Under the pieces are notes generated by a model. The model did not search any database and was not told the origin of the DNA. It saw only the letters and a program-made list of their open reading frames with translations. Source: Medicago truncatula (taxonomy: Eukaryota > Streptophyta > Magnoliopsida > Fabales > Fabaceae). From it: a stretch of DNA of 64,000 nucleotides. This document shows, one piece after another, positions 5,287 through 35,487 of this stretch (within the stretch, counting starts at the first letter, position 1; the number at the start of each line of letters is the position of its first letter). The stretch spans positions 30,934,755 through 30,998,754 of the forward strand of contig NC_053048.1 of assembly GCF_003473485.1 (NCBI RefSeq), in the 5' to 3' direction. The position numbers and the translations under genes were made by a program.

Positions 5287-5390
5287 GGAATTGTTCTTCC
5301 GTTTCAATGTATTATTACACTCTTTAAACAGAAACAAAGAGTGTCATTATTAAATCGTTTTTCAGAAATAACCTTCTCTTCAAAGCCAAA

Positions 5391-5984
5391 ATGTCCACTT
5401 ACGAAAACTACAATGTTGTCTTCCACTCCGAAACCATTCACACAATGGTCACACATGATCCTTCCATGGTTGATTGCTGGCTTTCAACCCTCTCCCAAAC
5501 TAGCCGCAGCCGCCGCTTCCTTGTCGGCCTTGATGTGGAGTGGCTCCCAAACAGACAACGCAATGTCGAAAACCCCGTCGCTGTTCTCCAACTCTGCATA
5601 AAGAAAAAATGCCTTGTTTTTCAAATTTTGCATGCTTCATTTGTTCCACAATCTCTTGTTGCATTTCTTGAGAACGAAGATAACACATTTGTTGGTGTTG
5701 GTGTCGAAGAGGATGTGGGTAAGCTTCTTAGAGACTACTCTTTGGTTGTTGCTAACTTTGTTGAACTTCGCAACCTTGCTGCTGAGAGATTTGGGGAACA
5801 TATGAGATGTGGTGGACTCAAAGCATTGGCTTTAAGTGTTCTTGGGAAGGATCTTGAGAAACCAAGGAAGATTACTATGAGCAGGTGGAATAGTTTTAGG
5901 CTTACTCCTCAGCAAGTTCAGTATGCATGTATTGATGCTTTTGTTTCATTTGAGATTGGAAGGATTCTTAATGCTCGTAACTAG
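5391..5984 (+). CDS. Werner-type 3'-5' exonuclease domain protein (DEDDy, RNase D/WRN-like)
   Basis: A 197-residue single-exon protein with a complete 3'-5' exonuclease fold of the DnaQ/RNase D/WRN group. Such enzymes remove nucleotides from 3' ends using two metal ions. All four acids and the tyrosine are visible: motif I GLDVEW (D48, E50), motif II VGVGVEEDVGKLL (D108), motif III YACIDAFVSFEIG (Y178, D182). There is no RecQ helicase domain and no obvious targeting or membrane segment, as in the small plant WRN-exonuclease-like proteins. The ATG at 5391 is the first in frame after a TATA box at 5279 and opens directly into the conserved N-terminus (YNVVFHSETIHTMVTHDP) that its relatives share. 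Four relatives lie at 46-61.5 kb on the other strand; this copy and 60759-61481 are the two that look catalytically intact. The natural substrate (DNA or RNA) cannot be read from sequence. Confidence 0.9.
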   Translation: MSTYENYNVVFHSETIHTMVTHDPSMVDCWLSTLSQTSRSRRFLVGLDVEWLPNRQRNVENPVAVLQLCIKKKCLVFQILHASFVPQSLVAFLENEDNTFVGVGVEEDVGKLLRDYSLVVANFVELRNLAAERFGEHMRCGGLKALALSVLGKDLEKPRKITMSRWNSFRLTPQQVQYACIDAFVSFEIGRILNARN

Positions 5985-7929: not shown

Positions 7930-8189
7930 GGTTTAATTGCATGTTTGGTCACTCGTGTTTATTTTAGGTTTCAAGTTGGTCCTTTATGTTTTAAAAGTTT
8001 TAATTGGTCACTTATGTTTTAAAGGTTTCAAGTTGGTCCAAATATTTACTCACGTTGAAATAAGTTAGTCCCTTCCGTTACTTGACCTTTTAAAGATTCA
8101 ATTAACAATATGTGTGATATAATTTAACTTATTTAGAAAACCGGTTTCAAAACATTTTTTTAATTCTTTCGTTTTATTATATTCAATAT
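7930..8189. mobile_element. Mutator-like MITE, left part (split by the Ogre insertion)
   Basis: Begins GGTTTAATTGCATGTTTGGT. Its counterpart at 24514-24639 ends in the inverted repeat of the same text, and the pair is flanked by a perfect 9-bp duplication. The terminal inverted repeat runs over 100 bp with phrases such as TTTCAAGTTGGTCC. There is no coding capacity, so it is non-autonomous. Confidence 0.75.
8185..8189. repeat. 5-bp target duplication of the Ogre-like element, left copy
   Basis: AATAT, identical to 24509-24513. Confidence 0.85.
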
Positions 8190-10416
8190 TGTGCTCGTGA
8201 TTTTCGGATATCAAACCATTAATTGATTTGAATCGTCAATCTTTGAACTCTCGATTTTTATTCGTGGGAAGGGAAAAAATGAGTAAAAACCCTCATCAAG
8301 ACTTTGGATTCGGGGGTTGGTTACGCGAAGGGAAGGTGCTAGCACCCTAAGCGTCTACGGTATCCCGTAGGAACCTCTTACCTAATTTATCTTTGTGCTA
8401 AATTCATTGCTTATTTGAAATTTATTACCTAAAAAATCTAAGTGAAAGAATGGGGGAAGAAGAAGTATGTTTTTGGTTATTTTTACTTGATTTGGAAGGA
8501 TAAAAATCCTATGCCTACATACCCTTAAAGAAAAGGGATCAAAACCAATGTAGTTCACCTAAAGAATTTCTTTGGTGGGTTAGGTTGATTTTAATTTTTG
8601 AAAATAGTTTTAAGAAGAGATAAGAGGCCTCAAGGCATGAGATAAAATAAGGTGAGGTTGGTCAAATTTTAATTACAAAGAAGTCAAGTCTATTATGAAT
8701 ATTAATTCAATTAAGCATTTGATTAAGAAAATAAAAAGGAAAACACTTGGGTTACAAACCAAGGTTTATTAAGAAAATATTTTGGGAGTTTTGCATATTT
8801 GATTTTTTTTTAGACTAACCTTAAAAACTAACGTAACGGAGCAAAAATAAAATAAGCGGTAAATAAAGCGGCATAGTGTCGGTGCGTGTGTTACTACACT
8901 ATTACATACCCTCCTAGATACATTCTATGGTCTCAAGAGAAATATAATAAGAAATAAAAAAATGCGCAAAATAAATTACATCAATTTCCTAATTATACAC
9001 ACTAAAAAAAAATAAAAAATTAATGACAATAAAATGACAAGAAATTAAAATATGCATGAGATGATTCTAAATAAATAAAAAAATGGCAATTATAAAATAA
9101 AAACAGTAAATAAAAAATTAAAACAAACACAATATTTTTGTAAGTTTTTTAGATAATTTTCTTTTAGCAAAGGGGTGCAGAAAGCAAAAACAGAGGTGTA
9201 ATTAATACAACTGTAGTGAAATTAAAAAGGAACAACTGGGCTTAAGCAGAAACGGGTCGTGGGCGGGTCGGTTAGACCCGCCCGGTTCGAGGTTATATAA
9301 ATAGGGTGTAAGACCCATTTCTTTCACTTTCTTCATTCATTTCTCTCTCTTCACTTCTCTAATCTCACGTCTCCCTCTTCTCTGTTCTTCTTTTCATGAG
9401 TTTTCCGGCGCGGTGGCCGGTGGTGCACCACCGTGCCGGAGTTTTCAAAACCCTCCTTTTTCAAAAACAATTACATATTATTATATCCTTTTTCGCATAG
9501 GTGATAGATCCGGACTTAGATTTCAAAGAAAAGCAACAACACGTTCTAGATCTACATTCAAACAACACGAAAATAAAATACTACCTTTTTTTACCTCGGA
9601 TTCCGATCTGCTTCTTCTCTAATCTTTGAATTCGCTTCTGTTCATCAAACTCGGTTCTGATACTTGTTGAAACGGAGCGATTGAACCTTTGTTTAAATCG
9701 GATCCGTTACTCTTATTGTTGTGGGTTCGGATTCGAGTTTGTAAGTGACGGATTCAAAAGAAAAGGTGATGTTTAAGTGCGAAACTTGATTTATTTGAGG
9801 TGCTTATGAACAGATTCGGTTTGAATAAAGTGTTGGTTGAAATCGGTTTGGATTTGAGTGTTTGATTTTGAAATTTTTTGAAAGAGAAAGAAAATTAGGG
9901 TTTGATGATTGCGGCTACTGATTGGTGATTCTGTGGTTTCTCGGTTTGCGGCTGTGGAAAATTGTCTGTCTTTTCTGTATTTTGCAGGTTTGCTTTTATA
10001 GCATTAGGGTTGGATTGAATAAGGAAATAACTTGCAGAAGTTACTACCGCGTTCCCAGATTTGGAAACAAAAAATTGACCCTGTGAAATTGGCTGAACAC
10101 GAGGCGTACGGAGGAGAAATGAAAAAAGAAAAAAAAGGACCCTTGTTGGAATTTTAGGACTTATTAACTTTATTGGACAAAAACTGGAAAATAAACATTT
10201 ATTAACTATTAAAAAAAAAGTAACTAACTTTAAAATTAAAAATAAAAGATGGAAATTAGATAATGAAATAAAACGAGAGGAAAGTGCCTGCAATCGGAGC
10301 AAAAAATGAGGTATTTTAAAATACCTCCCTGCCGAAATTTTCACTGAATCATGAGATCGGCTAGAGTCAAACGACACGCGTCCATGGGATCCTTGGTCAA
10401 AATTTAGGGTATGACA
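8190..10416 (-). repeat. 3' LTR of the Ogre-like element
   Basis: 2227 bp, plus-strand ends TGTGCTCGTG and GGGTATGACA. Identical to 22281-24508 apart from one A in a homopolymer. No gene of its own. A TATATAAATA box on the strand opposite to the element lies at 9294-9303. Confidence 0.9.
9294..9303 (+). promoter_or_regulatory. Antisense promoter-like TATA in the 3' LTR
   Basis: TATATAAATA on the plus strand is followed by a long pyrimidine-rich leader (about 9318-9395, rich in CTTTC/CTCTC) and an ATG at 9396 opening a 34-codon frame. This is the look of a plant core promoter and 5' UTR, pointing into the element against its coding direction. TATATA is partly symmetric, so it may instead serve the sense promoter. 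Confidence 0.4.
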
Positions 10417-10431
10417 GATGCCCCTATTTAA
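10417..10431 (-). promoter_or_regulatory. Putative polypurine tract next to the 3' LTR
   Basis: On the minus strand AAATAGGGGCATC directly precedes the LTR start TGTCATACCC. Position fits the plus-strand primer site, though the purine run is short. Confidence 0.35.
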
Positions 10432-10671
10432 GTTTCTCCGTCACAGGGATTTACAAATATCAACTTTAGAATCCATGGGTGGGAGAGACTTAAATATTAA
10501 GTACGCTAATTTTGACCAATTGAAATGCTAAGAATGCCATGCTCGTGACTGTAATAATATGAATACTTACGATGCACTTACGAATGCAAGGATAGTGAAC
10601 ACCTACTGACTGGGGGACATACAGATAAATATTATTGGGGAGGAAAACCATTTACCATTATGCGGAGAGAA

Positions 10672-11216
10672 AAATTGTCTATTACCCTTACTAAGGTAAA
10701 GGCCGACATACGGAAGAAAATACTGTCGATTACCTCAACACGGGTAACGACCAACTTACAAAAAGGAAATACCGTCAGTTACCTCAACACGGGTAACGAC
10801 CGAAATACGAAAAATAAATACCGTCAGTTACCTCAACTCGGATAACGACCAACTTATGAAAAGGAAATACCGTCAGTTACCTCAACACGGGTAACGACCG
10901 AAATACGAAAAATGAATACCGTCAGTTACCTCAACTCGGATAACGACCAACTTATGAAAAGGAAATACCGTCAGTTACCCCAACTCGGGTAACGACCAAC
11001 ATACGATAAGAAAAGGAAATACCGTCAGTTACCTCAATTCGGATAACGACCAACTTACGAAAAGGAAAGGAAATACCGTCAGTTACCTCAACACGGGTAA
11101 CGACCAACATACGAAAAATAAATACCGTCAGTTACCTCAACTCGGATAACGACCAACTTATGAAAAGGAAATACCGTCAGTTACCTCAACTCGGGTAACG
11201 ACCAACATAATAAAAG
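10672..11216. repeat. 49-bp minisatellite in the element's 3' UTR (about 11 units)
   Basis: Units start TACCGTCAGTTACCTCAAC at 10721 (variant), 10770, 10819, 10868, 10917, 10966, 11020, 11074, 11123 and 11172, preceded by a diverged unit at about 10672. Most units are 49 bp; those at 10966 and 11020 are 54 bp from AAGG insertions. Two variants alternate in the middle: one with ACACGGG and GACCGAAATACG, one with ACTCGGA and GACCAACTTATG. This gives a 98-bp higher-order period. 3' UTR tandem repeats are known in Tat/Ogre elements and can seed satellites. Confidence 0.9.
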
Positions 11217-11732
11217 TCAACTGCTACCAGTACGAGGATAGCTTACAAAAGTTACTGGGGAGCTAAACTGAATTGACACAAAGATTGCTCGGAGGGACCT
11301 GCCACTTGAAATAAGCTTTAACTGGTGACAACCTTGAATTAAACACATTGGGGAAGATACTTTTTACGGGACACACTGAAATAAGACACCTGGTAATAAT
11401 GCAACCATACATGAATGATATTTGTATGCGTGCTATCTATGCATGAATGAATGAATATGTATGAGACACATATGACAATACAATGGCAAGATTTTTGAGG
11501 GGTGATTGGGCAGGTCCAGAACGGAAATGGCCCGGTACCATAGTACAAACAACCCAGTAATCTTCATCAGGGCACAACCCTTTAAGCAAAACACTGATGG
11601 GGCAATGAACCAATAGTCAGACCACTAGCCGAAGTCGCCATTTCTGGATTGAACTGGAGTACTTCCACAAGCTCATGCTTCAAATAGTCATTGCTTTTCC
11701 TTTGGTATACTTTGAAATCCCTAACTTTTGCC

Positions 11733-11760
11733 TGGACTGCCCTTTCGGGTTTTCAATCCA
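11733..11760 (-). ncRNA. 3' UTR stem-loop 1 (GNRA hairpin)
   Basis: In element RNA: outer stem TGGATTG/CAGTCCA (7 pairs, one G.U), an AAAA bulge on the 5' side, inner stem CCC/GGG, loop GAAA. First of five related hairpins in plus-strand order; see the finding on covariation. Confidence 0.6.
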
Positions 11761-11779
11761 CCGGGATGCTCTTTTTTGC

Positions 11780-11809
11780 CTAAGCCGCCCTTTCGGGTTT
11801 TCAACTTAG
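11780..11809 (-). ncRNA. 3' UTR stem-loop 2 (GNRA hairpin)
   Basis: In element RNA: outer stem CTAAGTTG/CGGCTTAG (8 pairs, two G.U), AAAA bulge, CCC-GAAA-GGG. Sits 19 bp from stem-loop 1 as a pair. Confidence 0.6.
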
Positions 11810-11810
11810 C

Positions 11811-12318
11811 GAGTTCATTTTTTTTCTTTTTTTTTTTTATATTTTTTTTAGCAATGACCATACCCGTGCTTTTGAATCGAACATTGACACATGTTTCTAC
11901 GATACGTGAATTAAAGATAAAATGTTTGTCAATTTTGCTTTTTCCAAAAGAAAACATAAAGATTTTTTTTTTTTTTTTAAAAGGAATTTTCAAAGTTTTT
12001 ACCTCAAGTATTAACAGTAAAAATGGAAGAGAACTTGCACATAGAATAAATAGGAACTTCAAATAAAAGGCACGGGCTCAAATTGATTTAAAATAAATGG
12101 TAACCAACCAAAGGTATGGCACCACAGATCACAAAGTTTGGAACATGGTAATTAATATGGGGAAGGTACATTGAACACAATAACCATCATACTTCCTACC
12201 AACTTTGGATTCCACTATTTCGATTGCTTCAATATCGAAGATCTTTTGACGGCTTAGGTGCCCCAAGTGAGTGATGCTTCATCTGATGCAGTTACTTGTC
12301 ATAATCCTTAAATTTTGC
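11811..12318. other. Element 3' UTR between hairpins, with T tracts
   Basis: Plus-strand T runs at about 11818-11850 and 11961-11978 are A runs in element RNA. No coding frame belongs to the element here. Confidence 0.5.
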
Positions 12319-12348
12319 ATAGATCGCCCTTGCGGGTTTTCAATCTAT
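12319..12348 (-). ncRNA. 3' UTR stem-loop 3 (GNRA hairpin)
   Basis: In element RNA: outer stem ATAGATTG/CGATCTAT (8 pairs, one G.U), AAAA bulge, CCC-GCAA-GGG. The loop changes from GAAA to GCAA, still GNRA. Confidence 0.6.
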
Positions 12349-12353
12349 CAGGA

Positions 12354-12394
<41 letters not shown>

Positions 12395-12409
12395 TCTCTA
12401 ATTTTTGCC

Positions 12410-12437
12410 TGGACCGCCCTTTCGGGTTTTCAGTCCA
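12410..12437 (-). ncRNA. 3' UTR stem-loop 4 (GNRA hairpin)
   Basis: In element RNA: outer stem TGGACTG/CGGTCCA (7 pairs, one G.U), AAAA bulge, CCC-GAAA-GGG. Confidence 0.6.
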
Positions 12438-12458
12438 CCGAGACGCTCATTTTTGGTT

Positions 12459-12486
12459 TAGGCCGCCCTTTCGGGTTTTCAACCTA
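12459..12486 (-). ncRNA. 3' UTR stem-loop 5 (GNRA hairpin)
   Basis: In element RNA: outer stem TAGGTTG/CGGCCTA (7 pairs, two G.U), AAAA bulge, CCC-GAAA-GGG. It is the hairpin nearest the pol stop, 24 bp downstream of it in RNA order. Confidence 0.6.
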
Positions 12487-12509
12487 CCGAGCTGTTCTTT
12501 TATAAACAT

Positions 12510-15500
12510 TTAGACAAAGTATTTCTTGACTGCATCAGAATTCACAGGACGAGGTAAATCCTCTCCATCCATGGTTGTAAGAATTAAAGCACCACCAGAG
12601 AAAGCTCTCTTCACTACATAGGGACCTTCATAATTAGGTGTCCACTTGCCCCTAGGGTCTGGTTGAAAAGACTTGATACTCTTGACTACTAGGTCTCCTT
12701 CTTTAAATTCACGGGAACGAACCTTCTTATCAAATGCTTGTTTCATCCTTGTCTGATATAGTTGTCCGTGACACAAAGCAGCCATGCGCTTCTCCTCAAT
12801 CAAATTCAACTGATCGTACCTATTCTGACACCATTCAGCCTCTGACAACTCAGCTTCCATCAAGACTCTCAAAGACGGGATTTCAACTTCTACAGGAAGT
12901 ATCGCTTCCGTACCATACACCAAGGAAAAAGGGGTTGCCCCTGTTGAAGTACGCACTGAAGTACGGTAACCATACAAAGCATAGGGTAACATCTCATGCC
13001 AGTCCTTATAGGTGACCACCATCTTCTGCACAATTTTCTTGATATTCTTGTTTGCAGCTTCGACCGCACCATTCATCTGGGGTCTATAAGGAGAAGAGTT
13101 ATGATGCTCAATCTTGAAATCATCACATAATTCCTTCATCATCTTATTGTTCAAATTCGTACCATTATCCGTGATAATCTTGTTAGGGACACCATAGCGA
13201 CATATGATATTGTTCTTGATAAACCGGACCACCACCTGCTTGGTCACATTGGCATAAGAAGCCGCTTCAACCCACTTGGTGAAGTAGTCAATGGCCACTA
13301 GTATGAAACGATGTCCATTGGAAGCTTTTGGTTCGATCCGACCAATCATATCAATGCCCCACATAGAGAACGGCCACGGAGACGAGATAACGTTGAGCAT
13401 AGACAGTGGTACATGAATCTTATCTGCATAAATCTGGCACTTGTGACATTTCTTGGCATAGTGATGGCAATCAGCATGCATTGTTATCCAGTAGTAGCCT
13501 GCCCTCAATGCTTTCTTAGCCATTGAATATCCACTAGAATGGGTCCCAAATGAGCCTTCATGTATCTCATGCATTAATAAATCTGCTTCTCGTCGGTCCA
13601 CACATCGGAGCAAAACTGAATCAAAGTTCCTTTTGTACAAAACATCTCCACTTAGAAAGAAGTTACCAGACAATCTTCTTAAAGTTCTCTTATCTTTACG
13701 GGATGCCCCAGGAGGGTACTCTTGAGTTTGAAGAAACACCTTAATATCATGAAACCACGGCTTATCATCGAAAACTGCTTCGGCTGCAAACACATAAGCA
13801 GGCCTATCAAGGAATTTGACACTGATCAGCGGCACGTCATTGCCATGATTCACTTTGATCATTGAAGATAAAGTAGCTAGGGCATCTGCCATTTGATTCT
13901 CCTCCCGAGGAATGTGGTGCAGTTCCACCTTGTTGAAGAAAGTCAACAAACGTCTTGCATAGTCTCTGTAAGGTACCAAACCATCATGGTGAGTTTCCCA
14001 TTTTCCTTTGATCTGGTTAATCACAAGAGCTGAATCTCCATATATGTCAATATTTTTGATCCTCAAGTCAATGGCTTCTTCAATACCCATGATGCAAGCT
14101 TCATATTCTGCAATGTTGTTCGTGCAATCAAACCGGAGTCTTGCAGTGAAAGGAATGTGAGTACCCTTTGGAGTAAGGATAACCGCCCCTATTCCATTAC
14201 CATAGACATTAACGGCCCCATCAAATATCAAACCCCACTTAGAGTCTGGATCAGGACCTTCACCAAACAATGGTTCGTCACAATCTTTCATCTTCAAATA
14301 CATGATCTCTTCATCTGGAAAATCAAACTTGATAGGCTGATAATCTTCAATTGGTTGATGAGCTAAATGGTCAGCAAGAATACTACCTTTGATGGCTTTC
14401 TGAGTGCGGTAGACAATGTCATACTCGGACAATAACATCTGCCAACGAGCAATTCTTCCTGTTAAAGCCGGCTTCTCAAAAATGTACTTGATCGGATCCA
14501 TTTTGGATATCAACCAAGTAGTGTGATTAACCATATAGTGACGAAGACGCTTAGCAGCCCATGCCAAAGCGCAACAGGTTTTCTCAAGCATAGAATATCG
14601 GGACTCACAATCAGTAAACTTCTTACTCAAGTAGTAAATGGCGTGCTCTTTCTTTCCAGTCTCGTCTTGTTGACCCAACACACAGCCCATAGAATCTTCT
14701 AACACAGTCAAATACATGATCAAAGGCCTCCCTTCGACCGGAGGGACAAGAATCGGGGGTTCTAACAAATACCCTTTGATGCTGTCAAAAGCTTTCTGGC
14801 AATCTTCCGTCCAAACAATCCCTTGATCTTTACGGAGTAACTTGAATATCGGCCCACATGTGGCAGTCATATGAGAGATGAATCTGGAGATGTAGTTCAG
14901 TCTTCCTAGAAAACCTCTAACTTGTTTTTCTGTCTTTGGAGCAGGCATTTCCCTGATAGCTTTGACTTTGTCGGGATCCACTTCAATACCCTTCTGGCTG
15001 ACAATAAAACCCAAGAGCTTGCCGGATCTAACACCGAAGGTACACTTGTTAGGATTCAAACGGAGTTTGTACTTTCTCAACCGTTGAAACATCTTCGACA
15101 AATACTCAACATGTTCTTCTTCAGTGCCTGATTTGACGATCATGTCATCCACATACACTTCAATCTCTTTATGTATCATATCATGGAATATTTTAGTCAT
15201 GCCTCTCTGGTAAGTGGCACCAGCATTTATCAACCCAAACGGCATTACTAAGTAGCAGAACGCGCCCCAAGGCGTGATGAACGACGTCTTTTCTCTATCT
15301 TCTGGAGCCATCTTGATCTGGTTATACCCGGAGAATCCATCCATGAAGGAGAATACCTTGCATCTAGCAGTACTATCAACCAATACATCAATGTGAGGTA
15401 AAGGGAAATCATCCTTCGGACTAGCTTTGTTCAAATCCCGATAGTCAACACACATTCTGACCTTACCATCTTTCTTTGGAACGGGCACTATGTTGGCCAA

Positions 15501-15752
15501 CCATTGAGGATATTCAGAGGTAATCAAGAAACCTGCATCAATTTGCTTTCGCACTTCCTCTTTGATCTTGAGAGCCATATCTGGATGAGATCTTCTTAAC
15601 TTCTGCTTGACTGGAGGACACTCGGGCTTCAAAGGCAAACGGTGTTCCACAACATCATGGTCTAACCCCGGCATGTCTTTGTAGGACCATGCAAATATAT
15701 CATCATACTCTCTGAGAAGCTCAATTATCTTTTTCTTGACAGACGCCTCCAA
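12510..15752 (-). CDS. Ogre-like pol: reverse transcriptase, two RNase H domains, integrase
   Basis: About 1080 residues. RT: VPKKDGKVRMCVDYRDLNKA (91-110), FSFMDGFSGYNQI with D138, PWGAFCYLVMPFGL, and the catalytic YVDD at 200-203. A first RNase H (about 345-470: YLTVLEDSMGCVLGQ, YYLSKKFTDCESRY) is degenerate. A second RNase H follows (FDGAVNVYGNGIGAVIL, NNIAEYEACIMGIEEA, GDSALVINQIKGKW, ENQMADALATL). Integrase has the HHCC finger (HEIHEGSFGTHSSG ... CHKCQIYADK) and a complete DDE set (WGIDMIG, TDNGTNL, GAVEAANKN), then YRTSVRTSTGATPFSLVYGT. Dual RNase H is diagnostic of Tat/Ogre. The frame opens at a TTG, not a start codon. It is the continuation of the exon at 15974, from which it is cut off by a one-base shift near 15770. 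Confidence 0.92.
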   Translation of the reverse strand: MEASVKKKIIELLREYDDIFAWSYKDMPGLDHDVVEHRLPLKPECPPVKQKLRRSHPDMALKIKEEVRKQIDAGFLITSEYPQWLANIVPVPKKDGKVRMCVDYRDLNKASPKDDFPLPHIDVLVDSTARCKVFSFMDGFSGYNQIKMAPEDREKTSFITPWGAFCYLVMPFGLINAGATYQRGMTKIFHDMIHKEIEVYVDDMIVKSGTEEEHVEYLSKMFQRLRKYKLRLNPNKCTFGVRSGKLLGFIVSQKGIEVDPDKVKAIREMPAPKTEKQVRGFLGRLNYISRFISHMTATCGPIFKLLRKDQGIVWTEDCQKAFDSIKGYLLEPPILVPPVEGRPLIMYLTVLEDSMGCVLGQQDETGKKEHAIYYLSKKFTDCESRYSMLEKTCCALAWAAKRLRHYMVNHTTWLISKMDPIKYIFEKPALTGRIARWQMLLSEYDIVYRTQKAIKGSILADHLAHQPIEDYQPIKFDFPDEEIMYLKMKDCDEPLFGEGPDPDSKWGLIFDGAVNVYGNGIGAVILTPKGTHIPFTARLRFDCTNNIAEYEACIMGIEEAIDLRIKNIDIYGDSALVINQIKGKWETHHDGLVPYRDYARRLLTFFNKVELHHIPREENQMADALATLSSMIKVNHGNDVPLISVKFLDRPAYVFAAEAVFDDKPWFHDIKVFLQTQEYPPGASRKDKRTLRRLSGNFFLSGDVLYKRNFDSVLLRCVDRREADLLMHEIHEGSFGTHSSGYSMAKKALRAGYYWITMHADCHHYAKKCHKCQIYADKIHVPLSMLNVISSPWPFSMWGIDMIGRIEPKASNGHRFILVAIDYFTKWVEAASYANVTKQVVVRFIKNNIICRYGVPNKIITDNGTNLNNKMMKELCDDFKIEHHNSSPYRPQMNGAVEAANKNIKKIVQKMVVTYKDWHEMLPYALYGYRTSVRTSTGATPFSLVYGTEAILPVEVEIPSLRVLMEAELSEAEWCQNRYDQLNLIEEKRMAALCHGQLYQTRMKQAFDKKVRSREFKEGDLVVKSIKSFQPDPRGKWTPNYEGPYVVKRAFSGGALILTTMDGEDLPRPVNSDAVKKYFV

Positions 15753-15974
15753 CGACGCTCCAATCTTAATTTCTTTTTATCATCCTCAGTGCCCAGGTTG
15801 ATTAACTCTATTTCTTCCTTGTGAGGCTGAAAGGCTTTTCTTTCTTGCTCTAACATCCATCGGAGCTCATCGGGAATCTCTTCATCCTCTTCTACCCAAG
15901 CTTCGTAAACTGGGAACTCAAAGTTGGAAGGCAGCATAGGGTCACTATGTTCAACGGGCTCATGTATGTTCAGT
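15725..15974 (-). pseudogene. First part of pol exon, ending in a frameshift
   Basis: From the predicted splice acceptor the frame reads LNIHEPVEHSDPMLPSNFEF, then YEAWVEEDEEIPDELRWMLE, then EELINLGTEDDKK-like text, and then loses homology and stops at 15725. The homologous continuation is in the next frame (12510-15752), whose conserved text begins around 15770. The shift falls in an A/G-rich stretch near 15766-15785, so one base appears to be missing. This breaks protease-to-RT continuity. A sequencing error in the homopolymer is the alternative. Confidence 0.7.
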
Positions 15975-16258
15975 CTGCATATGATTCATGATTGATTTTT
16001 TAGCAAAAGAGTGAATGCAGACCTTTGAAATTGATTTTTTTTTTAAAAGAAAAAGAGAACAAGTTTTTTGGTTTTTTGTATTACCATTTTTCCAGAAAAA
16101 GCACTAAAATAAAATAACGGCCGTGACAGAAACGACAATTTTCATTAATACTGAAAATAAACTCAAAGCAAAAACAAACCCTACAAGATTTCACTTTCGT
16201 CTGAGGTAGGACGAAAGGAGTTTTCTTAAAAAAGCAACAAAAAAGACAAACACATTAC
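15975..16258 (-). other. Predicted 284-bp intron between protease and RT
   Basis: On the minus strand the donor GTAATG overlaps the gag-pro stop codon and the acceptor is ATATGCAG. Joining the two keeps the frame open (Ser-Lys-Leu-Asn-Ile across the junction) and removes the stop. A branch-like TTGCTAAA lies about 30 bp before the acceptor. An intron at this site, with partial splicing, is reported for pea Ogre. Here it is a prediction. Confidence 0.7.
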
Positions 16259-19200
16259 TTAGAAAGAGGTATCGCAGAAGGGATGTCAACAGCAATCCAA
16301 TTGCAGCAGTTTCCACCCGGAGTCACAAAGTCAGGTGCCACCTCTTCTGATTGATCTTCCAAGATTGCATTAGTTTCAGGTGGCGCATTAATGAATCCAG
16401 CACTGTGAAAAGTACCTCTAGTTGGGTCGAACATCACTTGATTATTGCCGGAGAAACCCAGACCTTCCCTGCGCTTGTTCTCAGGCAACTGTACTAACTT
16501 CCCCCAACCTTCTGCTTTTCCTTCTTGAATTACTCTCTGAGCATCCCTTAGAGAGGCCATGCATGTTTCACCTCTTGTAGTACCGCTTTCGACCGAAAGC
16601 CCTTGGAATGACGTTCCATCCGGACTTTCACCACCAATGAAGGAAAAAGACGACAAATGGCTAACCAAAAAAGCTGATTCCCCACTTACTGTAACAAGTT
16701 TTCCACGACTCACAAACTTTAACTTTTGATGAAGGGTGGATGTTACTGCCCCGGCTTCATGAATCCATGGTCTACCAAGTAAACAGCTATAGGAAGCTTG
16801 AATATCCATTATCTGGAATGTAACTTTAAACTCTTGGGGCCCAACAGTGATAGGTAAATCTACTTCTCCCCATACCGTCTTCCTGGATCCATCAAATGCC
16901 CTTACTGATACACAACTAGGCCTAATGAATCCATCTGAATATGTCAATTTATCAAAGGTCGTCTTTGCCATCACATTGAGGGAAGAACCGGTATCTATCA
17001 AGACATTGGACAAAGAATCTGTTTTGCACATAACAGAGATATGCAAGGCCATATTATGGTTCTTCCCCTCCACTGGGAGGTCTTCATCACTGAAACTCAG
17101 ATTGTTGCATGCCGTCACATTTCCAACAATGCTCCCAAATTGACCCAAAGTCACATCATGGTCTACGTAGGCTTGATTCAACACTTTCATCAATGCATCC
17201 CTATGAGCATCAGAGCTTGTCAATAGTGACATGATAGAAATCTTTGATGGAGTCTGCAATAACTGATCCACTATCTTATAATCACTTTTCTTGATCAGCT
17301 TCAAAATCTCATCATTATCAGTTTCACCAGGTTGAACCATACTCTTACCCTTGCTAGGATCTGGTATTGGCACTGACTCTATCACCGGAGCTTTCTTCTT
17401 TGCTTGCACAACTGCCGGAAGGATGCGTCCACTTCTCAGAATTTGACTATTCTCTGCAATGTTACTCACGGAAGTTGAGGGACTCCAGGATATTTCTTTA
17501 CCATTCTCTATGCTTGTAGGTTCATAATTATACGGCATGGCGTTTTGAGAGAAAAACGGCTTGGGTCTCGGCACACAAATTACCAGAGGAGCGACAGCTG
17601 GCTTGGAACTGTCCTTGAACACCGGAGTAACACCATCAATTGGTTTCGCACTATCCTTGAACACAGGGATTACAACACAGACACTCTTCTCTTCCCTTGT
17701 GACAACCAGCTCTTCCCGATCCATTAGCCCTTGCACATCATCTTGAACCTGCGCGCAACCGCGGGGATCCACAGAACATACCTCACAACTATTATGATTA
17801 TGGCTAAACATAGCTGCCTCACACATCTTCACATGTAATGGAACCAACGGAGTTTTGATATCCTGAGAGCGAGTGACAAGACCCCCTTCTTGATAATCTT
17901 CAACCATGTTAACAGTAGGCCCATGGGGTGGCAGAGGATGGTCTGGAGCAGCAGGGTTCGGGTCAGTGAAGGATAAATCTTTGCTGTGAATCAACTTTTG
18001 AACTGCCTCTTTAAGGGGGTAACAGTGTTCAATGTCGTGTCCTGGTGCCCCTTGATGGAAGGCACAATTTCGATCAGCACGGAACCAAGGGGGTAAAGGG
18101 TTCTGCACACGAGGAGGTGGTAGGGTCTGAACAAGACCTCGGGCAAGCAAGGAAGGTAACAAGGCTTCATATGTCATGGGGATAGGGGGAAATTGGTTTC
18201 TTTGAGGGCGAGTATGTTGTTGTTGAGCTCGAGGGCGAGGCTGTTGTTGTTGAGGTGGTGGGGGATAGTATGGTTGTTGATAAAACGGTTGGGGTTGATA
18301 AGGTTGTGGTTGATATAGTGGTGGATAATATGGATGGGGTGCTTGAGGCCTTTGTAGTTGATAGTTTGGATTTTGTGGAGTTAGGGTAGGTGGTGGAATG
18401 TTAGCAACATAGGGGTAGCTAGGGTATATAGGCTGGGATCCGCCATGGGCCACCATACCAACCTCTTGAGCGTTCTTCTTTGAGGACCCATTTCCGAACT
18501 TCCTATTACCATTAGATGAACCACCTGAAGAAGCACCATCTTTACTCACACGTCCCTTACGGACCCAATCTTCAATGCGCACACCCATATCTACCATATC
18601 AGTAAACTTTTGTGAGGCACAACCAAGCATCTTCTCTGAGTAGAAAGGGCTCAGAGTCTCATAGAATAGATCGGACACTTCTCTTTCATCCAGAGGCGGA
18701 CGGATTTGAGCAGACTTTTGAATGAAGCGTTGAGCGTATTCCTTGAAAGATTCCTTATCACCCTGAGTCATAGATTGCAGTTCTTTCCGGTTAGGTGCCA
18801 GATAAGAGTTATACTTGTACTGTTGGATGAAAGCATTGGCCAATTCCTCAAAGGTTGTGATGCCCTTCAAATTCATATACCATGTGTGTGCGGGACCAGT
18901 CAAACTGTCCTGGAAACAGTGAATAAGCAGAGGCTCATTATTCTTGTGAGCTACCATCTTCCTGACATATGTGACTAAGTGCATCTCAGGGCAAGTATCC
19001 CCTGTGTACTTTTCAAAGATCGGCATTTTAAACTTATGAGGTATCACCACATCCGGAACCAAGCAGAGGTCATTCACATTCTGACTGAACATTTCTTTAC
19101 CACGGATAGTCTTTAACTCTTTGTGCACCGCCTCAAACCTTTCTTCCAAGTTTCCTACCCTATCATCACCAGCCACACTATTAGAGTGATAAACCTGTTC

Positions 19201-19689
19201 TTCTTCTTGATGAGCAGCATGAACGAGGGGTCCAGCATAGGTCATAGTGGCCTGAGGAAAAGGCTGGCCGGACTGATAAAACGGTGTTTGTTGATGTCCA
19301 AAAGGGAACTGCATTTCTGGTGCATTATGACGAACACCTTCATTATTTGCGAGTGCCATGCCCCACGGATAGCCTGGCGGCATATGATACTGAGGAGGAA
19401 TAGAAGAACCAAGAGAGCCAGTAGGACGAAACCCTGAACTATACATATTTGTCATATCACCAGAGGAAAACTGATTCACCAAGGGCTGTGTAGTACTAAT
19501 AGTTGCAGTAGAACCCGCAGGCTGAGAGACTTCAACATCTCCCTGAACAGTCTGAACAATTTTTGCTTGAGAGGCTTGTGCCTGTGCGGCCATCATGTCC
19601 ATCATCATTGCAGTTATCTTTTCCATACCTTCTTTGAGGCTACTAACCTCCTCCCTAAGATCATTGTTCGTTTGTTCAGCAGCTGCCAT
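16255..19689 (-). CDS. Ogre-like gag-protease
   Basis: A 1144-residue frame from the first ATG; the open frame continues upstream to 19755 and slightly beyond without another ATG. Order: a coiled-coil-like N-terminus (EQTNNDLREEVSSLKEGMEK), a Pro/Gln-rich stretch, the gag capsid core (FQDSLTGPAHTWYMNLKGI, FIQQYKYNSYLAPNRKELQS, SFKEYAQRF), a Pro/Gln/Tyr-rich linker, a single CCHC-like knuckle (CAFHQGAPGHDIEHC), and near the C-terminus a retropepsin with LIDTGSSLNVMA and CLLGRPWIHEAGAV. The stop at 16255 lies inside a predicted donor site, so unspliced RNA would give gag-pro only and spliced RNA gag-pro-pol. A splice-acceptor-like TTTCTGCCTCAG just upstream (about 19767-19778) raises the chance of a second, leader intron. 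The frame is intact. Confidence 0.9.
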   Translation of the reverse strand: MAAAEQTNNDLREEVSSLKEGMEKITAMMMDMMAAQAQASQAKIVQTVQGDVEVSQPAGSTATISTTQPLVNQFSSGDMTNMYSSGFRPTGSLGSSIPPQYHMPPGYPWGMALANNEGVRHNAPEMQFPFGHQQTPFYQSGQPFPQATMTYAGPLVHAAHQEEEQVYHSNSVAGDDRVGNLEERFEAVHKELKTIRGKEMFSQNVNDLCLVPDVVIPHKFKMPIFEKYTGDTCPEMHLVTYVRKMVAHKNNEPLLIHCFQDSLTGPAHTWYMNLKGITTFEELANAFIQQYKYNSYLAPNRKELQSMTQGDKESFKEYAQRFIQKSAQIRPPLDEREVSDLFYETLSPFYSEKMLGCASQKFTDMVDMGVRIEDWVRKGRVSKDGASSGGSSNGNRKFGNGSSKKNAQEVGMVAHGGSQPIYPSYPYVANIPPPTLTPQNPNYQLQRPQAPHPYYPPLYQPQPYQPQPFYQQPYYPPPPQQQQPRPRAQQQHTRPQRNQFPPIPMTYEALLPSLLARGLVQTLPPPRVQNPLPPWFRADRNCAFHQGAPGHDIEHCYPLKEAVQKLIHSKDLSFTDPNPAAPDHPLPPHGPTVNMVEDYQEGGLVTRSQDIKTPLVPLHVKMCEAAMFSHNHNSCEVCSVDPRGCAQVQDDVQGLMDREELVVTREEKSVCVVIPVFKDSAKPIDGVTPVFKDSSKPAVAPLVICVPRPKPFFSQNAMPYNYEPTSIENGKEISWSPSTSVSNIAENSQILRSGRILPAVVQAKKKAPVIESVPIPDPSKGKSMVQPGETDNDEILKLIKKSDYKIVDQLLQTPSKISIMSLLTSSDAHRDALMKVLNQAYVDHDVTLGQFGSIVGNVTACNNLSFSDEDLPVEGKNHNMALHISVMCKTDSLSNVLIDTGSSLNVMAKTTFDKLTYSDGFIRPSCVSVRAFDGSRKTVWGEVDLPITVGPQEFKVTFQIMDIQASYSCLLGRPWIHEAGAVTSTLHQKLKFVSRGKLVTVSGESAFLVSHLSSFSFIGGESPDGTSFQGLSVESGTTRGETCMASLRDAQRVIQEGKAEGWGKLVQLPENKRREGLGFSGNNQVMFDPTRGTFHSAGFINAPPETNAILEDQSEEVAPDFVTPGGNCCNWIAVDIPSAIPLSK

Positions 19690-19755
19690 TTTCTTCTTGA
19701 TGTATGCTCGGGTATGATGAACACGGGTAGGTTTGTACTGAATACGCCGGGCCAC

Positions 19756-20122
19756 CTTTGCTTTTCTCCTGAGGCAGAAATGAGGAAAGTATGAGACTTG
19801 GCTTTGACACTTTTTATGAATGCAATATGATGCATGATATGCTATATGCCAGAATATGCAATTTTTATATATATATTTTTTTATCGAAGGACCTATAGAA
19901 GCAATTTTGTAAACATATCAACCTAAACAATTCACTAAAAAACAAAGTTGATCACAAGATAATTCCCTTTCTAACAACAAAGCCAAGAGATAGACTTTAA
20001 AGTAAAACACAAATAATTCCCTTTTAACAAACTGAGTCAAGGGATAGACTCCAAAATACATAAAGAAAAACTAAGAAAAAGACATGAAAAACAAACTGAG
20101 ACTCTCAAGCTCCTGAAGCGGA
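19756..20122 (-). other. Spacer between ORF1 and gag
   Basis: About 370 bp without a conserved frame. It contains an acceptor-like pyrimidine tract and CAG next to the gag frame. Confidence 0.45.
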
Positions 20123-21550
20123 CTAATCCTCAAAATCAGAATGTGGACCATCAAAGAGATCCATACGCTTCTTCTTTCGCCCGGGAATTCGATCAAGGGC
20201 GGCATCCTTCTCCTTGATTCTTTCATTCAGCTTGGCGATTATCACATCTTTCTGTCGGCTATCATAGGCTTCTTGCTCCAGCAAGCCCATTACAGTCTCA
20301 TAATCCTTATCCTTCTTCTGACACTCCCTTTTCCACATATGTATCTCACGTTCCGCTTCGGCTAAACGCTCTTGGTACTCTTCCTTGGTTTGTGGGAGTA
20401 GAGGTAAAGGTATTTCTGGAACGGTCGAAGATAAGAATCTTGGCAAGGTATAAGGCATACCGAAAGCTGTAGCTCTATCAATCACCCACTGTGTATACGA
20501 TTCATGTGCAAAGCTCTGTTTTCTTCCCAATTGGATTCCATCAAACTTACGAATAGAGTGCCAAGCTTGCACAAACCGCATCCTCAAATTTGTATGATCA
20601 TTTTTGTTAAGATAAAACTCATTGGACAGAGAAAGACTGTCAGGTCTCCCCTTCATAGGGTATCCGTACTGACGCATAGCAAGAGTAGGGTTGTAAGTAA
20701 TTCCTCCACACGTACCGATAAGGGGCACATTTTCAAACTCTCCACAACTGCCAATAATTCCTGCGGTGTTAGTACCCGCATGGACCCACACAATGTCAGC
20801 TGGAGTGAGAGGCATGATCCTCTCAGACCAAGAAGCTTTCCCGGAGTTCTCTTTGGAGAAGACAGACTTAGTTAAATGTGAAGCATACCATCTGTATAGC
20901 AGGGGTGCACAACAAACAATCAGTCCACCCTCTCGGATATTTCTGTGGTGAATAGAATGGTAAGTGTTTGCAAGTAAAGTGGGAACTGGGTTCTTGGCTA
21001 GAAAAATCTTAATTGCGTTGAGGTCGACAAAGTTGTCCATGTTGGGAAACAAGAAAAGGCCGTATATGAGTAAGGTGAAAATAGATTCAAAGGCATTGGT
21101 CTTTTTGGCTTTCACAAAGTCGGAGGCTTTTTGGTAGAGGAACTTGGCGGTTAAGCCTTGGAGGTTGTTTTTAATGGTGAAGTGAGGATGAACCAAGTCA
21201 GAAGGTTTGAGGTGAAGGGCTTCTGCAATAGTTGCATTTTTGGGGCTGGGTTCAAGGCCGTTGAAAGGTTCTCCCTCGGATACTGGTAAGCCAACCCAAA
21301 AGGAATATTCTTCAAGAGTGGGGACCAACTGGTAGTCGGGAAACGTGAAGCAGTGACAAATTGGGTCGTAAAACTGCACCAAAGTCTCTAAAATTCCATC
21401 TTCGACCTTCACTTTGAGGAGGTCAAGTAATCTCCCATGACGTTCTCGAAAATCTCTTGGATTAGTCACATGAGATGCTAACTCCCTTAGCCTTGTCAAA
21501 TCCGGTTTCTTGAAAGTGTACTTCTTAATACTCCTCGTCTTAGAATCCAT
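20123..21550 (-). CDS. Ogre ORF1: plant-mobile-domain-like protein (DUF7745 type)
   Basis: A 475-residue frame from an ATG, upstream of gag, the position of the extra ORF that marks Ogre elements. The N-terminal two thirds resemble the plant mobile domain/DUF7745 family: LVQFYDPICHCFTFPDYQLV, PTLEEYSFWVGLPVSEGEPF, and ADIVWVHAGTNTAGIIGSCG. Its function is unknown. Related domains occur in plant silencing proteins such as MAIL1, and many are carried by transposons. The C-terminus (about 385-465) is charged and predicted coiled coil (EEYQERLAEAEREIHMWKRE), ending in a basic GRKKKR that could be a nuclear signal. No stop interrupts it. Confidence 0.8.
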   Translation of the reverse strand: MDSKTRSIKKYTFKKPDLTRLRELASHVTNPRDFRERHGRLLDLLKVKVEDGILETLVQFYDPICHCFTFPDYQLVPTLEEYSFWVGLPVSEGEPFNGLEPSPKNATIAEALHLKPSDLVHPHFTIKNNLQGLTAKFLYQKASDFVKAKKTNAFESIFTLLIYGLFLFPNMDNFVDLNAIKIFLAKNPVPTLLANTYHSIHHRNIREGGLIVCCAPLLYRWYASHLTKSVFSKENSGKASWSERIMPLTPADIVWVHAGTNTAGIIGSCGEFENVPLIGTCGGITYNPTLAMRQYGYPMKGRPDSLSLSNEFYLNKNDHTNLRMRFVQAWHSIRKFDGIQLGRKQSFAHESYTQWVIDRATAFGMPYTLPRFLSSTVPEIPLPLLPQTKEEYQERLAEAEREIHMWKRECQKKDKDYETVMGLLEQEAYDSRQKDVIIAKLNERIKEKDAALDRIPGRKKKRMDLFDGPHSDFED

Positions 21551-22259
21551 CTACAATATTTACAAAAAATGCTTGTCTAAGTCCTTCGACAATTTAATGG
21601 ATGAAAAAAATACATTTATGAATGAATGCATGGATGCATGCTTATGCTGAAGTACATAGAATACATAATGAGGTTAAGTCCACAATGTTGGAGTCAAAAG
21701 GTGACAACGCCATTTGGTAAGGACTATGGTTTCAAATTGTACCTGTATCACGGGTTCTACCAAGTTCCCAAATTACAACTTCCCTTATGAACATATCGGT
21801 GTATAGGACCGCTCCTAGTCCAATAACATCCATAAGTAAGTCTAGTTTGAGTGTAGTATCGCGTGTCGACCAAAGTCAAGACTGCTCTTGGTTTAGCCAC
21901 CGCACTACGTCCTAAAAAAAAGCCAAGATGGGTTAAGGGTGATCTAAAGGTCCTCAACGTTTAGCGGACTTCAAAAATAATAACGCCAATCACGACTGCT
22001 CATGACGACATATTATTACTTTTGAAAGACCTATGTTGAGTGGAGTTACATCACGTGTACACATATCGCAGGACCGCTCCTGGTATGGCACTATGATCGT
22101 ACTCCGTCCTATCTTATGCTTCACTCAAGCCCGGGTGTAGGACTTATCTCACCACTCACGTAACAAGGTATGCAAGCAAATATGCACAAAGCATAAACAA
22201 ATAGTACAGCACAAAATAAAATAAAAATAAGGTGGGTTTAACCCGCGTGGAATTTAAGT
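21551..22259 (-). other. 5' leader of the Ogre-like element
   Basis: About 700 bp between the primer site and ORF1. It contains two related phrases with GGACCGCTCCT(A/G)GT at about 21808 and 22072 in otherwise dissimilar sequence. No conserved frame. Confidence 0.5.
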
Positions 22260-22276
22260 CCCCAGTGAAGTCGCCA
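22260..22276 (-). promoter_or_regulatory. tRNA primer binding site
   Basis: On the minus strand TGGCGACTTCACTGGGG starts four bases inside the 5' LTR. TGG pairs with a tRNA CCA end. The sequence fits the tRNA-Arg type of site described for Ogre elements; the tRNA identity is from memory of the family, not checked. Confidence 0.7.
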
Positions 22277-22280
22277 TCTC

Positions 22281-24508
22281 TGTGCTCGTGATTTTCGGAT
22301 ATCAAACCATTAATTGATTTGAATCGTCAATCTTTGAACTCTCGATTTTTATTCGTGGGAAGGGAAAAAATGAGTAAAAACCCTCATCAAGACTTTGGAT
22401 TCGGGGGTTGGTTACGCGAAGGGAAGGTGCTAGCACCCTAAGCGTCTACGGTATCCCGTAGGAACCTCTTACCTAATTTATCTTTGTGCTAAATTCATTG
22501 CTTATTTGAAATTTATTACCTAAAAAATCTAAGTGAAAGAATGGGGGAAGAAGAAGTATGTTTTTGGTTATTTTTACTTGATTTGGAAGGATAAAAATCC
22601 TATGCCTACATACCCTTAAAGAAAAGGGATCAAAACCAATGTAGTTCACCTAAAGAATTTCTTTGGTGGGTTAGGTTGATTTTAATTTTTGAAAATAGTT
22701 TTAAGAAGAGATAAGAGGCCTCAAGGCATGAGATAAAATAAGGTGAGGTTGGTCAAATTTTAATTACAAAGAAGTCAAGTCTATTATGAATATTAATTCA
22801 ATTAAGCATTTGATTAAGAAAATAAAAAGGAAAACACTTGGGTTACAAACCAAGGTTTATTAAGAAAATATTTTGGGAGTTTTGCATATTTGATTTTTTT
22901 TTAGACTAACCTTAAAAACTAACGTAACGGAGCAAAAATAAAATAAGCGGTAAATAAAGCGGCATAGTGTCGGTGCGTGTGTTACTACACTATTACATAC
23001 CCTCCTAGATACATTCTATGGTCTCAAGAGAAATATAATAAGAAATAAAAAAATGCGCAAAATAAATTACATCAATTTCCTAATTATACACACTAAAAAA
23101 AAATAAAAAATTAATGACAATAAAATGACAAGAAATTAAAATATGCATGAGATGATTCTAAATAAATAAAAAAATGGCAATTATAAAATAAAAACAGTAA
23201 ATAAAAAATTAAAACAAACACAATATTTTTGTAAGTTTTTTAGATAATTTTCTTTTAGCAAAGGGGTGCAGAAAGCAAAAACAGAGGTGTAATTAATACA
23301 ACTGTAGTGAAATTAAAAAGGAACAACTGGGCTTAAGCAGAAACGGGTCGTGGGCGGGTCGGTTAGACCCGCCCGGTTCGAGGTTATATAAATAGGGTGT
23401 AAGACCCATTTCTTTCACTTTCTTCATTCATTTCTCTCTCTTCACTTCTCTAATCTCACGTCTCCCTCTTCTCTGTTCTTCTTTTCATGAGTTTTCCGGC
23501 GCGGTGGCCGGTGGTGCACCACCGTGCCGGAGTTTTCAAAACCCTCCTTTTTCAAAAACAATTACATATTATTATATCCTTTTTCGCATAGGTGATAGAT
23601 CCGGACTTAGATTTCAAAGAAAAGCAACAACACGTTCTAGATCTACATTCAAACAACACGAAAATAAAATACTACCTTTTTTTACCTCGGATTCCGATCT
23701 GCTTCTTCTCTAATCTTTGAATTCGCTTCTGTTCATCAAACTCGGTTCTGATACTTGTTGAAACGGAGCGATTGAACCTTTGTTTAAATCGGATCCGTTA
23801 CTCTTATTGTTGTGGGTTCGGATTCGAGTTTGTAAGTGACGGATTCAAAAGAAAAGGTGATGTTTAAGTGCGAAACTTGATTTATTTGAGGTGCTTATGA
23901 ACAGATTCGGTTTGAATAAAGTGTTGGTTGAAATCGGTTTGGATTTGAGTGTTTGATTTTGAAATTTTTTGAAAGAGAAAGAAAATTAGGGTTTGATGAT
24001 TGCGGCTACTGATTGGTGATTCTGTGGTTTCTCGGTTTGCGGCTGTGGAAAATTGTCTGTCTTTTCTGTATTTTGCAGGTTTGCTTTTATAGCATTAGGG
24101 TTGGATTGAATAAGGAAATAACTTGCAGAAGTTACTACCGCGTTCCCAGATTTGGAAACAAAAAATTGACCCTGTGAAATTGGCTGAACACGAGGCGTAC
24201 GGAGGAGAAATGAAAAAAGAAAAAAAAAGGACCCTTGTTGGAATTTTAGGACTTATTAACTTTATTGGACAAAAACTGGAAAATAAACATTTATTAACTA
24301 TTAAAAAAAAAGTAACTAACTTTAAAATTAAAAATAAAAGATGGAAATTAGATAATGAAATAAAACGAGAGGAAAGTGCCTGCAATCGGAGCAAAAAATG
24401 AGGTATTTTAAAATACCTCCCTGCCGAAATTTTCACTGAATCATGAGATCGGCTAGAGTCAAACGACACGCGTCCATGGGATCCTTGGTCAAAATTTAGG
24501 GTATGACA
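22281..24508 (-). repeat. 5' LTR of the Ogre-like element
   Basis: 2228 bp, near-identical to 8190-10416. The antisense TATATAAATA box is at 23385-23394 and here points out of the element toward the DUF674 gene at 26567. Confidence 0.9.
23385..23394 (+). promoter_or_regulatory. Antisense promoter-like TATA in the 5' LTR
   Basis: Same sequence as 9294-9303, with a pyrimidine-rich leader downstream. Transcription from here would leave the element on the same strand as DUF674 copy A. Confidence 0.4.
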
Positions 24509-24513
24509 AATAT
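24509..24513. repeat. 5-bp target duplication of the Ogre-like element, right copy
   Basis: AATAT, partner of 8185-8189. Confidence 0.85.
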
Positions 24514-24639
24514 TATGTCGTGGAAGGACTAACTTATTCCGACGTGAGTAACATTTTGAACCAACTTGAAACTCTTAAAACATAAGGGACCAACTTGAAA
24601 CCTAATATAAACATAAGCGATCAAACATGCAATTAAGCC
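24514..24639. mobile_element. Mutator-like MITE, right part
   Basis: Reverse complement of the left terminus: ends GATCAAACATGCAATTAAGCC, then the 9-bp duplication. Continuation of 7930-8189 after the Ogre insertion. Confidence 0.75.
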
Positions 24640-31952: not shown

Positions 31953-31961
31953 TATTTTAAA
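31953..31961. repeat. 9-bp target duplication, left copy
   Basis: TATTTTAAA, identical to 33517-33525. Confidence 0.75.
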
Positions 31962-33516: not shown

Positions 33517-33525
33517 TATTTTAAA
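33517..33525. repeat. 9-bp target duplication, right copy
   Basis: TATTTTAAA, partner of 31953-31961. Confidence 0.75.
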
Positions 33526-35486: not shown

Positions 35487-35487
35487 A

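Follow-up and report, generated by a model that had tools for sequence, protein, structure and literature searches.

Tandem bulged GNRA hairpins downstream of pol and a second hairpin array in the 5' leader of Ogre-like retrotransposons of Medicago truncatula

Five short hairpins that follow pol in an Ogre-like retrotransposon of Medicago truncatula very probably belong to a cis-acting array in the sense-strand RNA of Ogre elements that has been under selection. We hold this view strongly because RNA structure, covariation, a recurrent place, and a common architecture were all shown. The element lies in a stretch of 64,000 nucleotides (NC_053048.1, positions 30,934,755 to 30,998,754), called the window here. 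A second array, composed of four rods in the 5' leader (21767-22105, minus strand), was found outside the region covered by the preliminary description of this DNA, which made no mention of it.

RESULTS

A young Ogre-like element carries the hairpins

The host element comprises the following features.

8190 to 10419, minus strand: 3' LTR of the Ogre-like element, with TG...CA ends and 99.9% identity to 22281-24511
10664 to 11269, minus strand: 3' UTR tandem repeats, mostly at 49-bp spacing (repeat family D1)
12510 to 15776, minus strand: pol ORF, with Pfam matches to reverse transcriptase (RT), RNase H, a second RNase H, and integrase
16255 to 19917, minus strand: gag-protease ORF (Pfam Retrotrans_gag, E 1.2e-10)
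20123 to 21550, minus strand: ORF1, upstream of gag, encoding DUF7745 (Pfam PF24924, E 1.8e-135)
22258 to 22276, minus strand: primer binding site (PBS), 4 nt 3' of the 5' LTR end
22281 to 24511, minus strand: 5' LTR of the Ogre-like element, from LTR self-comparison

Because the LTRs are 99.9% identical and ATATT flanks the element on both sides, as read at the outer LTR ends, this copy is considered young. The element has an extra ORF upstream of gag (here the DUF7745 ORF), which we take to be a hallmark of Ogre elements. It also encodes gag, RT, RNase H, an archaeal-type RNase H, and integrase in the Ty3 order and carries tandem repeats in its 3' UTR (10664-11269). With Pfam domains identified in ORF1, gag, and pol, the earlier assignment of the element as Ogre-like (Tat lineage, Ty3 superfamily) is right. 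Regular-expression searches of the gag-protease ORF detected a DTGS motif and no CCHC knuckle. An interval at 15777-16254 separates this ORF from pol; functional introns are stated for Ogre elements in a 2025 review (PMC12786077). Ogre elements account for 45% of one legume genome (PMC7004042).

Several other features of the window were recorded. The 49-bp repeats at 10664-11269 (minus strand) contain a near-palindrome, GTTAYC...GGTAAC, that may fold. Copies or fragments of a DUF674 gene are clustered at 26510-36474 (plus strand, four ORFs), and ORFs with a 3'-5' exonuclease domain (PF01612) are present at 5328-5984 (plus strand), 46055-46903, 51944-52657, and 60759-61568 (all minus strand). 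At 42748-44515, a 300-nt reference stretch is present in three identical copies at an exact spacing of 734 bp (family D3), apparently a young tandem array.

Five hairpins downstream of pol share one core

The hairpins are numbered from the LTR side, and their slots are numbered from pol.

12459 to 12486, minus strand: HP5 (slot 1), 23 nt past the pol stop codon
12410 to 12437, minus strand: HP4 (slot 2), from motif scan and fold in context
12319 to 12348, minus strand: HP3 (slot 3), GCAA loop and 8-bp outer stem, from scan and fold in context
11780 to 11809, minus strand: HP2 (slot 4), 8-bp outer stem, from scan and fold in context
11733 to 11760, minus strand: HP1 (slot 5), from motif scan and fold in context

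The preliminary description had reported five copies of one fold, and its account of them is borne out by direct reading, which places all five on the minus strand at the positions given, and by two scans of the 64 kb with core patterns, which returned exactly these five matches (chance means, 0.03 and 0.27). All have an outer stem of 7 to 8 bp, an AAAA bulge, a CCC/GGG inner stem, and a GNRA loop (GAAA in four, GCAA in one). Two pairs of hairpins are 20 to 21 nt apart, or 19 when HP2 is given its 8th pair. As had been claimed, every outer position pairs: all 35 are standard, 28 as Watson-Crick and 7 as G.U pairs. Folding in context gave high pair probabilities for all five hairpins, with a minimum of 0.35 at the outermost pair of HP5; the energy z-scores of single hairpins were modest (-0.98 to -2.81). 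Among 150-nt windows, LTR regions were flagged more strongly than either the leader or the 3' hairpins, so low energy is not specific.

Divergence between the five copies was 2.9% in the 14-nt core, compared with 34.8% in the flanks and 31.4% in the outer arms. When the arms were re-paired among copies, 2 of the 120 pairings, identity included, paired equally well, because the five differ by transitions only. These copies alone are therefore weak evidence of covariation, which within the window is suggestive only. Part of the hairpin units are related by duplication (86.6% over 97 bp), and genomic A-tracts adjoin the hairpins.

A scan of both strands of the window found no other constant-core hairpin family with an equally long core. 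Among 31 bacterial or viral DNAs that contain the core word, examined as a control, 1 has an outer stem of at least 7 bp. Rfam covariance models run on window positions 8100-24600 gave no family matching the hairpins; the only match in the element at E<=1 was MIR2680, in pol. This match is antisense to the pol region (15655-15821, plus strand) and scores 45 bits (gathering score, 155); the MIR2680 family may derive from Ogre pol. We also considered GCRGTC as a word common to the 5' and 3' hairpins and rejected it because the stem dictates it in the 3' set.

The core word recurs throughout the genome

We searched 430 Mb of genome in 42 contigs. The 17-nt core word TGAAAACCCGNAAGGGC has 1,488 exact copies (713 + 775), and its reversed control has none on either count (0 + 0). 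The 100 exact places among the matches listed are all on one chromosome. At least 42 places resemble the 754-nt region in whole or in part, at 74 to 100% identity, with 40 of 1273 candidates scored. In total, 118 loci were fetched (8 by similarity to the 754-nt region, 30 by core word, and 80 further regions); these partly overlap, so counts below use distinct sequences. Every locus was retrieved from one genome by means of the UTR or the core word, which inflates the constancy of the core. Among 120 hairpins that are not themselves exact pattern hits, and whose detection required a core with at most 4 mismatches and at least 6 pairs, 99 have 7/7 outer pairs.

Other collections were searched as well. 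In viral contigs, the core word gave one match, with an outer stem of 3; pol gave none; an RNase H-region peptide gave 11 pattern matches, none confirmed; and the PBS pattern gave 8, in which tblastn with pol finds nothing. Thirty core-word matches in bacterial genome contigs were rejected as relatives, being chance-like. In a plasmid collection, 84 records matched pol at less than 60% identity, and none spans 80% of pol.

Relatives support selection for pairing in the sense RNA

The preliminary description had proposed that selection acts on RNA structure, and the relatives back this claim, making the case stronger than first put. Among 246 distinct hairpins with at most one core mismatch, 197 form all seven outer pairs, 36 form six, 6 form five, and 7 form fewer. 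Outer pairs, counted from the core, exchange A-U for G-C: pair 4 is A-U in 150 and G-C in 71 of the 246, pair 5 in 53 and 164, and pair 6 in 102 and 131. We compared these hairpins with a tree-aware, structure-directed null in which the substitutions of each column were scattered over the tree (1000 nulls). Pairing across the seven pairs was 95.4%, against a null mean of 50.2% and maximum of 78.2%; 0/1000 nulls reached the observed pairing, and 0/1000 reached the observed two-sided changes for the seven pairs jointly. With 307 sequences (core <=3 mismatches), pairing was 91.1% versus 41.0% in the null, again with 0/1000 nulls for both pairing and two-sided changes. Pair by pair, two-sided change was significant at outer pairs 4 to 6 (p 0.001, 0.007, and <0.001) and not significant at pairs 1, 2, 3, and 7.

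A check of the R-scape type had been predicted to give significant covariation. In a purpose-written, R-scape-like blind test of all 1830 column pairs (60 nulls, tree-corrected), outer pair 6 did rank first, while pair 5 came fifth and pair 4 sixth, but the E value of 0.12 for pair 6 is not significant by the usual threshold, and the predicted significance was missed.

We further examined 278 distinct hairpins, each retained for forming five or more of its seven outer pairs. Their 1946 outer cells comprise 1567 Watson-Crick pairs, 324 G.U, 25 A.C, and 30 others; outer pairs 2 and 3 hold most of the G.U cells, which are fixed there, and excluding both leaves 55 G.U and 16 A.C. The excess of G.U over A.C, which holds whether or not pairs 2 and 3 are included, indicates that it is the sense RNA that folds. 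The inner stem also covaries: its pair 3 is C-G in 236, U-A in 22, U-G in 12, C-A in 7, and G-A in 1, a switch from C-G to U-A in 22 of the 278. The unpaired AAAA bulge is kept in 251 and a GNRA loop in 247 of these hairpins.

Simple repeat divergence does not account for this pattern. Compared with the window copy, 39 other UTR copies have diverged by 3.1% over the core, by 7.0% over the arms, and by 10.4% over the remainder of the span; the final 120 nt of pol, at 3.5%, match the core in conservation among these copies.

The array keeps its place after pol

Most of the 70 distinct arrays consist of two clusters with no more than three hairpins each: 22 are 3+3, 19 are 3+2 (the type in the window), 13 are 2+3, and 16 have other arrangements, the ends of fetched pieces possibly clipping some. 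Cluster starts are 560 to 865 nt apart (median, 693; n=65). Stems are alike between slots 1 and 4 and between slots 2 and 5, which suggests that the array arose through an ancient duplication of a unit of three hairpins. The first hairpin begins 10 to 40 nt past the end of the pol match in 42 of the 46 distinct elements that have such a match at this end; in the other four it lies at 66, 72, 85, and 161 nt. Ten elements have a pol C terminus only 29 to 59% identical to that of the window element over 84 to 200 aa. Eight of them place the first hairpin at 10 to 40 nt, and two place it at 66 and 85 nt.

A PBS-like word follows the hairpins

One further feature lies between the hairpins and the 3' LTR.

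11631 to 11646, minus strand: PBS-like word CAGAAATGGCGACTTC, 15 of 16 nt identical to the LTR-PBS junction

Local alignment of the leader with the UTR was not significant overall (29/200 shuffles were equal), and only the PBS word stood out. Among 58 distinct segments past the last hairpin, some of them short and one lumping several loci without a site, 28 contain TGGCGACTTC with at most one mismatch (19 exactly) and 30 do not; shuffled controls gave 0/58. The word sits about 80 to 160 nt past the last hairpin, and its flanks differ among families. It is a possible second tRNA-binding site.

The 5' leader carries four hairpin-capped rods

The second array lies between the PBS and ORF1.

22042 to 22105, minus strand: leader rod 1, apical hairpin 22069-22082, loop GCGG, z -3.49
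21953 to 22040, minus strand: leader rod 2, apical hairpin 21990-22005, loop GCAG, z -6.52
21853 to 21908, minus strand: leader rod 3, apical hairpin 21877-21890, loop GCAG, z -2.59
21767 to 21851, minus strand: leader rod 4, apical hairpin 21804-21817, loop GCGG, z -4.37

The word AGCRGT occurs 30 times in the window on both strands, and only the four leader copies have a stem of at least 5 bp. Each caps a rod of 56 to 88 nt that folds better than shuffled sequences. Three of the four rods also beat shuffles as antisense, less strongly than as sense (antisense z, -2.35, -2.77, -0.92, and -3.09 for rods 1 to 4). The lower tier of the hairpins is clear by folding and weak in a contiguous-helix test (63/5000 jointly; one of four slots <0.05).

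To sample relatives, 39 leader regions were fetched at a set distance from 3' arrays, to which they are linked by distance only. A recognizable PBS is present in 31 of the 39 (in one, L177, on the strand opposite to expectation), which with the window gives 32 leaders. Across subfamilies, the four hairpin positions are retained. Sorted by eye, with some slots in some leaders not being the best fold, the 32 leaders fall into classes by loop: GCRG (11 leaders), GTAC (9), GTTT with a first loop of GTAT (4), GTAT-like (2), GCRT (2), GTTG/GTCG (2), and a mixed class F (L190 and L192) with GTAT, GTTT or GATG, GTTG, and GTTG. The GTTT, mixed, and GTTG classes are named by the four central bases of a six-base loop. 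L190 and L192 perhaps represent a class in mid-switch or a recombinant.

Leader loops change together while their stems do not

We compared loops and arms in seven representatives, one copy per class, chosen after the loops were known, a choice that forces loop differences between elements and does not force agreement among the four slots. Loops were identical in 19 of 42 pairs within an element versus 3 of 84 pairs in the same slot between elements; arms showed the reverse, with 2 of 42 and 19 of 84 identical. The second loop base agreed in 42/42 within-element pairs and the fourth in 34/42, levels reached by 3/20000 and 0/20000 within-slot permutations, respectively. In the upper stems, 133 of 140 cells are standard pairs, and none of 20000 permutations equaled this, whether made overall or within slots.

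The leaders of the window and L181 are 88% identical (73 differences in 620 aligned sites). Six G-to-T changes separate them in total, and four of these fall on the fourth base of the loop, one in each of the four hairpins; by simple arithmetic over 141 G sites, this pattern would arise by chance about once in a million. Because the loops change jointly and the stems do not, the pattern is unlike the product of gene conversion between repeats.

DISCUSSION

Two arrays with opposite behavior

The bulge-plus-GNRA core is nearly constant while pol differs greatly, which suggests that whatever reads the core does not change. The 3' reader is thus probably constant across element families, as would be expected of a factor from the host or of a highly conserved protein of the element. 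The leader loops switch between subfamilies, which suggests a reader that changes with the element; that this reader is an element-specific protein (Gag or ORF1) or a partner RNA conferring packaging or dimer specificity is a proposal we hold on even terms. The opposite behavior of a near-constant 3' core and switching 5' loops offers a direct means of telling a signal read by the host or a conserved protein from one read by an element-specific partner.

These considerations can be joined into one explanation, a constant docking site at the 3' end and an element-specific address at the 5' end, which we regard as evenly poised between right and wrong. The 3' hairpins would dock a constant factor multivalently, and the docked factor would export or protect the intron-bearing, unspliced genome RNA. 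Beside them, the four-rod array would act through its loops, which Gag, ORF1, or a partner RNA would read in choosing RNA for packaging or dimer formation. As to the 3' hairpins themselves, a multivalent docking site serving export or protection of unspliced RNA is the role we put first, tentatively; co-determination of packaging would be the next most likely.

A fuller version, plausible though on somewhat less than even terms, treats the leader as an RNA address: four slot-specific rods would display one mostly common loop word by which the Gag or ORF1 of each element would select the RNA of that element, and the constant 3' array, often with a second tRNA word, would be read by unchanging machinery. 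With the splitting of a subfamily, the loop word would change in most or all of the slots. If true, selection of genome RNA in plant retrotransposons would be a coded, diverging recognition system, and the loop change that separates L181 from the window would show packaging specificity in the act of diverging among close relatives.

Alternative explanations

The 3' array might instead be a packaging or Gag-binding signal that acts with the leader, by analogy with the Ty3 UTRs. Both UTRs carry tandem hairpins here, and Ty3 localization and packaging require both UTRs and POL (PMC11381356). A single diverging Gag reading both arrays, however, would be expected to switch the 3' core along with the loops, and the near constancy of the core counts against this account. 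Given the Ty3 requirement, we nevertheless rate it only slightly below export.

For the leader, the loops might be read through loop-loop kissing of two genome RNAs rather than by a protein. The class C loop, GTAC, is self-complementary, and retroviral GACG loops influence dimerization (PMC516450), but the class B and G loops (GTTT and GTTG) are not self-complementary, and kissing seems unlikely to us as the means of recognition.

An ENE triple-helix element has a U-rich internal loop. A stability or 3'-end function of the 3' array, related to poly(A) or to an ENE-like triple helix, could draw on the A-tracts beside the hairpins and on the AAAA bulge kept in 251 of 278. Inspection of the five hairpins found no U-rich internal loop, however, and at E<=1 the Rfam models hit nothing in the element besides MIR2680, within pol; we regard this function as improbable.

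The structure could also act as a DNA cruciform or during reverse transcription, through pausing or repeat-creating strand transfer. Tandem repeats are common in Tat 3' UTRs and have been attributed either to illegitimate recombination or to abnormal transfer of strands (PMC7004042), and 49-bp repeats lie downstream of the hairpins. Against this stand the preference for G.U over A.C (324/25, or 55/16 without pairs 2 and 3), which favors one strand, and the constant bulge and loop, which pausing does not need, making such a role very unlikely. That the hairpins are passive remnants of duplicated repeats, with pairing inherited rather than selected, is hardly credible: some units are duplicated (86.6% over 97 bp), the five copies differ only by transitions, and the blind test gave E 0.12, but the core evolves far more slowly than its flanks, 0/1000 nulls matched the pairing, and the same place past pol recurs in distant elements.

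Comparison with known systems

In the open-licence literature, we found no cis-acting RNA signal for Ogre elements, no account of these hairpins, and, by text search, no occurrence of the core letters. Nor was a precedent found there for a concertedly switching leader loop or for a constant 3' array of bulged GNRA hairpins. The nearest systems each share some features with the Ogre arrays.

The MPMV CTE is located between the last gene and the 3' LTR, and the hairpins (12486-11733) likewise lie downstream of the pol stop codon and upstream of the LTR, which is reached at 10419. They also resemble CTE systems in being structured RNA and in belonging to an unspliced genome with a presumed intron. 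Unlike CTEs, the Ogre array consists of short, repeated hairpins with a constant bulge and a GNRA loop. The MPMV CTE, MusD MTE, IAP RTE, and MER11 CTE are structured RNAs (PMC11379458, PMC12786077). According to the 2025 review, plants do not use the NXF1 receptor, and RNA export of plant LTR elements has had no direct study to date (PMC12786077).

The array shares its UTR and lineage with the hypervariable tandem repeats of Tat/Ogre elements; those repeats are variable, whereas the hairpins are conserved, and the word "hairpin" is absent from the main text describing the repeats (PMC7004042). As in Ty3, with its bipartite PBS, tRNA-complementary words occur at both ends of the Ogre RNA (PMC11381356). 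The Ogre 3' word differs in that it copies the initial 10 nt of the 5' PBS. In Ty3, the 3' site uses other parts of the tRNA.

The GACG stem-loops of alpha- and gammaretroviruses sit in the 5' leader. Like them, the Ogre leader has tandem hairpins with one shared loop between the PBS and the first ORF. Leader hairpins that share a loop are a kind already known in retroviruses, where such tetraloop-sharing hairpins have been linked to packaging and heterodimerization in alpha- and gammaretroviruses (PMC516450). The Ogre loops are not GACG: they are GCRG in the window and other G-initial loops in relatives. The Ogre array also differs in belonging to a plant element, in having four hairpins with a G-Y-N-N loop (GATG in one slot), and in that, from one subfamily to another, most or all of its slots adopt a different loop type.
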